42,627 bases of DNA from a virus: positions 1 through 42,627 of IMG/VR virus record IMGVR_UViG_3300020020_000085, one strand, 5' to 3'. A program made the position numbers and the translations under genes. The stretch's first letter is position 1, and the number at the start of each line of letters is the position of its first letter. Below, piece by piece: positions 17,647-18,732 of the stretch. A model generated the notes under the pieces. It searched no databases. It was not told where the DNA came from and saw only the letters and a program-made list of their open reading frames with translations.

Positions 17647-17770
17647 TTCCTGAGCACTGACTAGCTTTCATGTAGCTCAATGGTAGAGCACACTGCTTCT
17701 AACAGTGATGTTACTGGTTCAAATCCAGGCATTGACCCCGCAAGGGGACAGCTAAGCGAATCCTCAGGAA
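17647..17770 (+). ncRNA. Y-RNA-like RNA A with tRNA-Arg(UCU)-like body
   Basis: Ends pair as an 8-bp stem, TTCCTGAG (17647-17654) with CTCAGGAA (17763-17770), followed by a T-run. Inside are an internal loop (CACTGA / GAAT), a second stem TAGCT/AGCTA (17662-17666, 17750-17754) and a CATG/CATT step. On top sits a tRNA-like body in normal order: D arm GCTC/GAGC with GG in the loop, anticodon arm CACTG-CTTCTAA-CAGTG (anticodon UCU) and T arm with loop TTCAAAT. A CCCC-GCAA-GGGG hairpin follows. The body has no proper acceptor stem; the RNA's own stem takes its place. Driven directly by sigma-54 promoter 1. Likely a tRNA-mimicking Y RNA partner of the Ro60-like protein. Confidence 0.65.
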
Positions 17771-17842
17771 CAATTTTTGAAAGGTCAACGCATATGTCTA
17801 ACAAGGAGGTATCCCATGCTTTAGTTCACTAGGAGGTGACAC

Positions 17843-17986
17843 ATGGGAAAGAAAGCTTGGCGGAAGGTCGAAAAATTCACTTCCGTAGACAAGGCGAAGA
17901 TCAAAGGTAAGGTAAGGCACACCCGAACGGGGGCCTGCACAGCAAAAGGTAAGTGCTATCACGGGAAGACTCAGTTGGCACGCTGA
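17843..17986 (+). CDS. Small basic protein, 47 aa
   Basis: ATG 17843 follows a textbook AGGAGGTGA. The product is strongly basic (GKKAWRKVEKFTSVDKAKIK) with Cys and His near the C-terminus (CTAKGKCYH), so it may bind nucleic acid. A 12-codon frame (17794-17832) precedes it. Its last codons (TTG GCA CGC TGA) lie within the second sigma-54 promoter, exactly as for the gene ending at 17628; both proteins end Leu-Ala-Arg. Confidence 0.65.
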   Translation: MGKKAWRKVEKFTSVDKAKIKGKVRHTRTGACTAKGKCYHGKTQLAR

Positions 17987-17991
17987 TTGCT
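17976..17991 (+). promoter_or_regulatory. Sigma-54 promoter 2 (-24/-12)
   Basis: TGGCACG, CTGA, TTGCT (17976-17991) is a full match to the RpoN consensus and differs from promoter 1 at a single spacer base. The predicted start is about 18002, ahead of a hairpin, tRNA-Gly, RNAs B to E and the Ro60-like gene. Confidence 0.88.
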
Positions 17992-18012
17992 TTAGAAGTT
18001 AGTGAAGTCTGG

Positions 18013-18040
18013 GGTAGGGCAACCTACCTCAGCAATTTTT
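18013..18040 (+). terminator. GNRA-capped hairpin with T-run, probable attenuator
   Basis: GGTAGG-GCAA-CCTACC (18013-18028) followed by TTTTT (18036-18040) lies about 10 bases after the predicted sigma-54 start and just before tRNA-Gly. It could attenuate the transcript or act as a processing signal. Confidence 0.45.
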
Positions 18041-18043
18041 CGA

Positions 18044-18118
18044 GCGACTTTCGTATATTCGGTAGTAGCGGGCCTTCCAAGCCCTGCGGGATGGGTTCGA
18101 AACCCATAGGTCGCTCCA
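18044..18118 (+). tRNA. tRNA-Gly (anticodon UCC)
   Basis: Acceptor GCGACTT pairs with AGGTCGC (one G-U). The anticodon loop is CTTCCAA (UCC at 18076-18078) and the T arm ATGGG-TTCGAAA-CCCAT is perfect. The CCA end is encoded (18116-18118). The D arm is weak and position 27-43 is mismatched, but the whole reads as a usable tRNA. It is the only element here with a normal open acceptor end. Confidence 0.82.
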
Positions 18119-18130
18119 GCTCTTTACAAC

Positions 18131-18294
18131 TTGGGTGAGCACTGAAAAGCTTACATGTATCTCATTAGTCTCAAAAACCAATGAGGGACAACCCGCCAAC
18201 CAATCCCTGAGCCTTCAATTTGAAGGTTGAGGGGCTGGGAGGGCGGGTAAGTCCTCCTAGCCATCACAAAGCGGCTCTTCGAATCCTCACCCAA
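18131..18294 (+). ncRNA. Y-RNA-like RNA B
   Basis: A 9-bp closing stem TTGGGTGAG/CTCACCCAA (18131-18139, 18286-18294) is followed by TTTTT. The same internal loop as in RNA A is present: CACTGA on the 5' side and GAATC on the 3' side. Then come GAAAAGC/GCTCTTC (one mismatch) and CATG/CATC. The insert differs from RNA A: a hairpin CTCATT/AATGAG in the D-arm place, then a long GC-rich arm (GGAC/GTCC enclosing CCCGCC/GGCGGG and a CCTTCA/TGAAGG tip). The head is thus less tRNA-like, while the base is conserved. Confidence 0.55.
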
Positions 18295-18301
18295 ATTTTT
18301 C

Positions 18302-18357
18302 GCAGCTATAAGTGCTTCCTTTTATGAGGCACGCAAGGTTCATAACCTGATAGCTGC
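18302..18357 (+). ncRNA. Compact tRNA-like element lacking one arm
   Basis: GCAGCTAT (18302-18309) pairs perfectly with ATAGCTGC (18350-18357). Inside are two hairpins: GTGCTTC-CTTTTAT-GAGGCAC (7-bp stem, 7-base loop) and AGG-TTCATAA-CCT, whose loop matches a Met (CAU) anticodon loop. A full cloverleaf is not formed, so it may be an armless or remnant tRNA, or another small partner RNA. It directly follows the T-run of RNA B. Confidence 0.4.
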
Positions 18358-18364
18358 CTTCGGT

Positions 18365-18502
18365 TTGACGGATACGTAGAAGCTTTCATGCTATTGGAGC
18401 CGTTAGGTGCTGGTTAGACGCCAGCCGACCCCACCTACAAAATTCTGAGGGGTCGATCCTCATCTTGAGGGACGTTAAAAGAGCTTCTAGAATCTCCGTC
18501 AA
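18365..18502 (+). ncRNA. Y-RNA-like RNA C
   Basis: The closing stem TTGACGGA/TCCGTCAA (18365-18372, 18495-18502) is perfect. The second stem TAGAAGCT/AGCTTCTA (18377-18384, 18482-18489) is perfect too. The 3' internal-loop strand is GAATC and the 5' strand TACG; TTCATG and CGTTAA follow as in the sister RNAs. The head holds GCTGG-TTAGACG-CCAGC, directly joined to a 7-bp stem CGACCCC/GGGGTCG and then a small CCTC/GAGG hairpin. This order resembles T arm, closed acceptor stem, D arm, as in RNA E. Confidence 0.55.
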
Positions 18503-18508
18503 TTTATT

Positions 18509-18570
18509 TGCTGGTCCGTGCCTGACCGTCCCACTGATAAGAGTGAAGGTCGTTAATATCATCGCCAGCA
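18509..18570 (+). ncRNA. Compact structured element with Ile(GAU)-like loop
   Basis: TGCTGGT/GCCAGCA (18509-18515, 18564-18570, one G-U) close a single compound arm, GACC/GGTC around CACT-GATAAG-AGTG. The tip and following bases (CTGATAAGAGTG, then AGGTC) resemble the anticodon and variable region of tRNA-Ile(GAU), but the 5' stem strand is shortened. Probably a tRNA remnant or a further small RNA of the cluster. Confidence 0.35.
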
Positions 18571-18576
18571 TTCAGT

Positions 18577-18732
18577 TTCTCGGACACTTGGATGCCTACA
18601 TGGGGGGAAACCCCTTTTATCGGTTCGATTCCGATTGTTGAGGTCACTCAACATAGCCAAATGGTAAGGCAATCGCTTGAAGAGCGATCATTAACCCGAA
18701 AGGGATGATCAAGCATTCAGAATTTCCGAGAA
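18577..18732 (+). ncRNA. Y-RNA-like RNA E with circularly permuted tRNA-Phe-like body
   Basis: Closing stem TTCTCGGA/TCCGAGAA (18577-18584, 18725-18732), loop CACT/GAATT, stem TGGATGC/GCATTCA and CATG/CATTAA match RNAs A-C. The head contains in order: GGGG-GAAA-CCCC; T arm ATCGG-TTCGATT-CCGAT (18619-18635); a 7-bp acceptor stem closed by GTCA, TGTTGAG/CTCAACA (18636-18653); TA; D arm GCC/GGC with GG in the loop; anticodon arm ATCGC-TTGAAGA-GCGAT (GAA, 18672-18688). All tRNA parts are present in permuted order, with the ends at the variable loop and the acceptor sealed. A CCC-GAAA-GGG hairpin follows. This is the tRNA-mimic layout expected of a bacterial Y RNA. Confidence 0.7.

Follow-up and report, generated by a model that had tools for sequence, protein, structure and literature searches.

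Y-like RNAs with swapped, often tRNA-derived heads share a putative Ro60-docking base in a viral genome

Introduction

In the metazoan Y RNAs hY1–hY5, a base helix is bound by Ro60 and the upper part of the molecule is variable. The bacterial YrlA RNAs (Rfam RF02553) lie beside the gene for Rsr/Ro60; their paired ends form a stem followed by an internal loop and a second stem, and the arms of the head follow the order T arm, acceptor, D arm. Here, we describe RNAs of comparable architecture in the virus record IMGVR_UViG_3300020020_000085, analyzed as one strand over positions 1 to 42,627 of that record (42,627 nucleotides, hereafter the window). Four RNAs within positions 17647–18732, termed A, B, C, and E, are very probably the Y RNAs of a phage Ro60 system, in which a single docking base for the Ro60-like ring protein encoded downstream is combined with variable heads. 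The window RNAs resemble hY1–hY5 in this division of labor; the hY recognition letters differ from those of the window, and the hY heads are not tRNA-derived.

Related gene arrangements have been described in bacteria and phages. The Salmonella rsr-yrlBA-rtcBA RNA repair operon shares with the window a Ro60-like gene next to Y RNAs and what seems to be a sigma-54 promoter, but in the window the RNAs are positioned ahead of the gene and number four rather than two (PMC7790460). Neither RtcB nor RtcA was seen among the window proteins tested. Phage-encoded Ro60-like proteins are represented by the Rsr homologue of Listeria phage CKA15, with three abundant putative Y RNAs close by (PMC12282133), by the Thermus phage phiLo Ro60 (PDB 9l5y), and by TROVE proteins of jumbo phages (PMC7824862). 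Neither the existence of phage Y RNAs nor the mimicry of tRNAs by YrlA is new. The portions of the CKA15, phiLo, and jumbo-phage accounts available to us describe neither a common docking base nor head swapping (PMC12282133, PMC7824862). In a limited check of the openly readable literature, outside which the main YrlA papers lie, we found no account of the Ro60 clade reported here, of head-swapped arrays on one base, or of the permuted form.

Four RNAs share a covarying base

A preliminary description of the region had proposed that four RNAs share a common base, and their coordinates and anatomy proved right. In A, B, C, and E, the base comprises an 8-bp closing stem, a 4-nt 5′ loop, and an 8-bp second stem followed by (U/C)(U/A)CAUG; on the 3′ side, the two stems are separated by a 5-nt loop, GAAUC in A, B, and C and GAAUU in E. 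This spacing (8-4-8 / 8-5-8) is the same in all four RNAs. A scan that scored stems only, later filtered for CATG and AAT(C/T), returned exactly A, B, C, and E in the 42.6-kb window, and the same structure scan returned no bases on the minus strand of the whole window. Across 1142 dinucleotide shuffles of the array region, the mean was 0.003 bases and the maximum 1, as compared to the 4 real ones.

The stems vary with compensation while the loop letters stay, as had been claimed. In a structural alignment of the four RNAs, 93.8% of the base pairs in the stems are standard and 11 of the 16 pairs carry changes on both sides; the covariation score of 0.812 compares with at most 0.244 for slid partners and at most 0.30 for shuffled partners. 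Pairing probabilities computed by RNAfold are close to 1 for the inner closing stem of every RNA; for the second stem, they are close to 1 in C and E and good in B, with the pairing partly shifted in A. One detail of the preliminary description was not retained: the CAUG sequence had been said to face C(A/G)U(U/C), but CRUY opposite CAUG occupies no fixed position in the four RNAs, which leaves at most a possible, unconfirmed 3-bp AUG/CRU mini-helix.

The downstream gene encodes a predicted Ro60-fold protein

RNA E ends 48 nt before the start of the gene at 18780–20378, the product of which had been proposed to be Ro60-like. An AlphaFold2 model of this protein was built from an alignment of 12 relatives (predicted local distance difference test score (pLDDT) 76.6, predicted template modeling score (pTM) 0.67). 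When the model was compared to solved structures using Foldseek, ranks 1–12 were all TROVE/Ro60 proteins, including human Ro60, the Ro autoantigen with RNAs, Deinococcus Rsr, and the Thermus phage phiLo Ro60. The VIA-align Z score was 19.6 to 9kop, 2i91, and 9nen, and Ro60 folds scored 17–20 over 410–440 residues, as compared to approximately 13 and below for proteins possessing the vWA domain only; the identity to the phiLo protein (9l5y) is 14% across the aligned fold. A profile of the 12 relatives reached solved Ro60 chains at an E value of 1e-6, the vWA_Ro60 model matched 2 of the 12 relatives, and the metal-ion-dependent adhesion site (MIDAS) residues D330, S332, S334, T392, and D416 do not vary among the 12 aligned sequences. 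The predicted fold and the profile of the relatives thus bear out the proposal: as modeled, the product is a Ro60-fold protein that lies outside current sequence models.

Relatives keep the base and exchange the heads

A single-sequence protein search of viral contigs with the window protein returned nothing; relatives were found only with an alignment. Profile searches placed them in giant phages (a 595-kb record and IMG/VR contigs) and in cyanobacteria, Myxococcota, Chloroflexota, Planctomycetota, and Melainabacteria, with a match present in 29 of the 386 cyanobacterial genomes sampled. For each gene, we scanned 3 kb upstream by scoring the stems alone and reading the loops afterwards. The relatives yielded 49 RNAs of the same geometry that share a UACA top and ACU in the 3′ loop, as compared to 0.0 in shuffled sequence. 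On the strand of the gene, base density is 3.6 per 10 kb upstream and 0.35 downstream; on the other strand it is about 0.1 or less. The arrays upstream of the relatives' genes contain 1–6 RNAs, and those at the cyanobacterial loci L107–L123, likewise of 1–6 RNAs, include direct tRNA heads with varied anticodons, permuted heads, and short hairpins.

The consensus of the relatives reads stem, YYNAC(N), stem, YUACAnAC, head, stem, (G/A)ACU(U/C), stem. Common to the window and the relatives is NAC opposite GANUY, of which the window is a variant: CAC-U or UAC-G stands for NAC, GAAUC/U for GACUU/C, and UAC or UUC precedes AUG. The expectation that homologues would conserve CACU/GAAU held for the geometry of the base and for NAC opposite GANUY, while the letters CACU/GAAU themselves are lineage-specific.

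Among 57 family RNAs, the window ones included, 12 tRNA heads were recognized directly and 19 with permutation; none were recognized among shuffled heads. The heads that interrupt the base span about 25–225 nt; short ones of about 23–38 nt and others of about 140 nt occur, and neither RNA B nor the 26–38 nt heads of the relatives are tRNA-like. Because straight tRNAs, permuted tRNAs, a GC-rich arm, short heads, and heads of about 140 nt all stand upon one base, it follows that heads swap and the base stays.

Several neighborhoods of the relatives' genes were observed in passing. In a Ktedonobacteraceae locus (L046:5959-9699), two tandem Ro60-like paralogues flank a vWA-like protein, with four Y RNAs upstream, and about 30 closely packed tRNA genes lie directly upstream of a Chloroflexi Ro60-like gene (L053:1348-4974). 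The phage Ro60-like gene is accompanied by a small protein of ubiquitin-like appearance, a JAB protease (Prok-JAB), and an E1-like ThiF protein; by eye, the window open reading frame (ORF) 20371–20640 resembles this small protein.

Heads and other members of the window array

The heads are as had been claimed. For RNA A, ARAGORN reports a tRNA-Arg and the Rfam tRNA model scores 46.7 bits; the base stands where the acceptor stem of a straight tRNA-Arg(UCU) body would be. The head of RNA E runs T arm, acceptor hairpin, D arm, anticodon arm, with the acceptor ends joined by a GUCA loop and the molecule opened in the variable region; rotated to the normal order, it is recognized by ARAGORN (118–122). 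A functional tRNA has an acceptor stem and a free 3′ end; A possesses no acceptor stem, and that of E is closed by GUCA. The T, acceptor, and D arms of RNA C follow the YrlA order when compared with the RF02553 consensus, and RNA B bears the GC-rich arm. Runs of U5 directly follow the closing stem in A and B, and C and E have no strong U runs. Interspersed among the Y-like RNAs are a tRNA-Gly(UCC) and RNA D, the latter described from its predicted fold with a weak, below-threshold Rfam match (Table 1).

Searched with Rfam at gathering thresholds and at E<=5, the array gave tRNAs only, plus one weak unrelated match, and blastn of the array against phages gave 0 matches. A search of viral contigs for the phage-type base as an exact DNA pattern recovered only the known array and 5 stray matches with neither an array nor a Ro60 relative. 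Elsewhere in the window, a uracil-DNA glycosylase domain and a family A DNA polymerase are split across two overlapping ORFs (25223–28130).

Table 1 Features of the window and, by locus label (L), of its relatives.
Feature	Position	Strand	Base sequence or site	Description
sigma-54 (-24/-12) promoter	17618..17633	+	TGGCACGCTAATTGCT	Perfect TGGCAC-N5-TTGCW; predicted start about 17644, at the RNA A 5′ end
RNA A	17647..17770	+	17647 UUCCUGAG-CACU-GACUAGCU-UUCAUG ... AGCUAAGC-GAAUC-CUCAGGAA 17770	Base 17647-17666 with 17750-17770; tRNA-Arg(UCU) body without acceptor stem, plus GCAA hairpin
RNA A 5′ loop	17655..17658	+	CACU	Opposite GAAUC 17758-17762
Second sigma-54 promoter	17976..17991	+	TGGCACGCTGATTGCT	Perfect match; precedes tRNA-Gly and RNAs B, C, E
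tRNA-Gly(UCC)	18044..18118	+		Inside the array, without base motif; encoded CCA, read from sequence
RNA B	18132..18293	+	18132 UGGGUGAG-CACU-GAAAAGCU-UACAUG ... GGCUCUUC-GAAUC-CUCACCCA 18293	Base 18132-18151 with 18273-18293; long, GC-rich arm as head
RNA D	18302..18357	+		8-bp stem, two hairpins; like a D-armless tRNA; without base motif
RNA C	18365..18502	+	18365 UUGACGGA-UACG-UAGAAGCU-UUCAUG ... AGCUUCUA-GAAUC-UCCGUCAA 18502	Base 18365-18384 with 18482-18502; T-, acceptor-, and D-like arms
RNA E	18577..18732	+	18577 UUCUCGGA-CACU-UGGAUGCC-UACAUG ... AGCAUUCA-GAAUU-UCCGAGAA 18732	Base 18577-18596 with 18712-18732; tRNA-Phe(GAA) head, complete but circularly permuted
sigma-54-like site	18752..18767	+		One mismatch, just before the Ro60-like gene; weak
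Ro60-like ring protein (predicted)	18780..20378	+		HEAT-repeat TROVE-like part and vWA domain; MIDAS DKSTS
ORFs traveling with the phage Ro60-like gene	L003:5379-5588, 12251-12661, 12661-13302			Similar ORFs in L002, L004, L005
Hairpin-in-tRNA sites	L002:3829-4533, L003:4730-5685, L004:4222-5402, L030:4825-5020, L035:3085-4479, L048:5498-5543, L104 3963-4176	L104 on reverse strand		Base in reverse order, as a hairpin within tRNAs

A second topology places the base within tRNAs

Outside the window, at L002, L003, L004, L030, L035, and the Myxococcota loci L048 and L104, the base occurs in reverse order as a hairpin in which GAAA or a comparable loop caps the closing stem. We counted 16 such hairpins (1 doubtful), as compared to 0.33 in shuffles. 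ARAGORN found no tRNAs on the 15 hairpin-bearing stretches tested whole. With the hairpin removed computationally, 12 of 17 cases gave a tRNA spanning the junction, as compared to 0 of 81 with random cuts. Most of the phage hairpins occupy the D loop or directly follow the D stem; in myxobacteria, the hairpin sits between the D and anticodon arms, at positions 26–29. After excision, L048 is a canonical tRNA-Asn(GUU) with CCA, and one phage example adopts a five-arm fold with a z score of -4.1. The permuted type II form is absent from the window, across which it was searched for.

These hairpin tRNAs may be tRNAs that have gained a Ro60 arm, Y RNAs closed by the acceptor stem, or precursors that lose the hairpin. 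Taken together with the window array, they incline us, by a modest margin of confidence, towards the Ro60-docking base being a portable module that evolution has grafted onto tRNA bodies at different points and opened at different ends. In some phages and myxobacteria, where it forms a capped hairpin within tRNAs that are otherwise intact and have free acceptor ends, it may let real tRNAs, or tRNA decoys, ride the Ro60 ring.

Sigma-54 sites at the array

Perfect sigma-54 sites occur four times in the window, at 17618, 17976, and 32526 on the plus strand and at 9859 on the minus strand; with one mismatch allowed, there are 10 as compared to 1.75 expected. The start predicted near RNA A follows the convention that GC is at -12. 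The promoter at the 5′ end of RNA A suggests that the RNAs are transcribed. No perfect site was present at the relatives' loci, so the promoters are particular to this phage. In Salmonella, damaged tRNAs activate the rsr-yrlBA-rtcBA operon via sigma-54 and RtcR (PMC7790460, PMC9879122), and by analogy, we hypothesize that the window sites may be linked to a tRNA-damage response.

Interpretation of the shared base

The Rfam YrlA consensus has CUAC after the second stem and AAACUUG before the closing stem, the same letters in the same places as the base of the relatives, which would make this base a YrlA-type Ro60-binding module. The relatives' RNAs match RF02553 over its full length but weakly, at 32–37 bits against a threshold of 69. 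As in the YrlA class, the window RNAs adjoin a Ro60 gene, the helix formed by their two ends contains a conserved internal loop, and a tRNA-like domain is present (A, and E when rotated); the order of T arm, acceptor, and D arm recurs in C and E. Unlike YrlA, the window has GAAUC and CAUG where YrlA has AACUU and ACA, and its array combines four RNAs. Among the heads are a GC-rich arm, a tRNA body in normal order, and a permuted tRNA in which the anticodon arm is retained.

The constant base is best read as a Ro60 docking site, as the preliminary description had suggested, with same-strand upstream bases in the relatives and the YrlA letters both in support; binding is predicted from these sequence features. 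The evidence for a phage Ro60 system comprises the covarying common base, the Ro60 fold, the synteny and base kept in relatives, and the tRNA-derived heads. Several findings weigh against it. The 18780–20378 protein matches no Pfam, NCBIfam, or PHROGs model, TROVE (Pfam) and Rsr (NCBIfam) included; it shares 24–29% identity with the relatives in the alignment and is the most divergent member of the family, with an end branch of 4.75, too long for placement in a tree. Where the relatives have the loop letters GACUU and YYNAC, the window RNAs have GAAUC and CACU; RNA A carries 2 mismatches in its second stem, with RNAfold preferring a shifted pairing in part of the ensemble, and within 17200–18800 RNAs A, B, C, and E do not match RF02553 even at E<=5. 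We take this last result as a limit of the Rfam model and thus call the RNAs YrlA-like rather than members of RF02553.

In the model that emerges, the Ro60-like ring would dock on the helix, the internal loop of which is asymmetric (NAC opposite GANUY), and on the YWC/UAC top, leaving the head as the variable part that sets what the particle does. We infer both the binding of the protein and the effect of the RNAs. The heads could gate access to the ring, recruit tRNA-handling enzymes or other partners, or present the ring to such enzymes or to nucleases. A Y RNA of Deinococcus is described as the tether between Rsr and PNPase (PMC7790460). Alternatively, the heads could be tRNA decoys, bait for anticodon nucleases when host defenses cleave tRNAs, a role that the Salmonella authors raised for YrlA.

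A different matter is whether the RNAs act without Ro60, as tRNA-mimicking decoys or damaged-tRNA substrates for which the base is merely a stabilizing clamp or an end-protecting stem. The anticodon arms kept in A, E, and many of the relatives' heads would suit such RNAs, and the sigma-54 sites recall the tRNA-damage-induced RtcR regulon with rsr and yrlBA in Salmonella (PMC7790460). We nevertheless consider this unlikely: a clamp has no need of fixed loop letters, and NAC, UACA, and GANUY are kept over deep divergence; B and the short heads of the relatives are not tRNA-like; and the arrays adjoin a Ro60-like gene.

Still less probable is that the base is a processing or termination signal, an RNase III site or an intrinsic terminator, separating the RNAs of a long transcript. 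The U5 runs of A and B fit a terminator, but C and E are without strong U runs, terminators need no fixed-letter internal loop, and the base as a capped hairpin inside the relatives' tRNAs can separate nothing. That the array is a functionless repeated family of decaying tRNA genes, alike by descent, accords with tRNA-derived heads but is very improbable, as stems that differ with compensating changes and heads that are mutually unrelated are the opposite of decay from a common copy.

Significance

The role of bacterial Y RNAs and Ro60 is still largely open, and the arrays of this divergent Ro60 clade, unnamed by current databases, offer natural head swaps with which to ask what the head specifies. 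With a sigma-54 promoter where RNA A begins, the phage may turn on its Y RNAs through the host tRNA-damage response. Circular permutation of the same parts, together with tRNAs that have a built-in Ro60 arm, would, if true, be a new way of building ribonucleoproteins.
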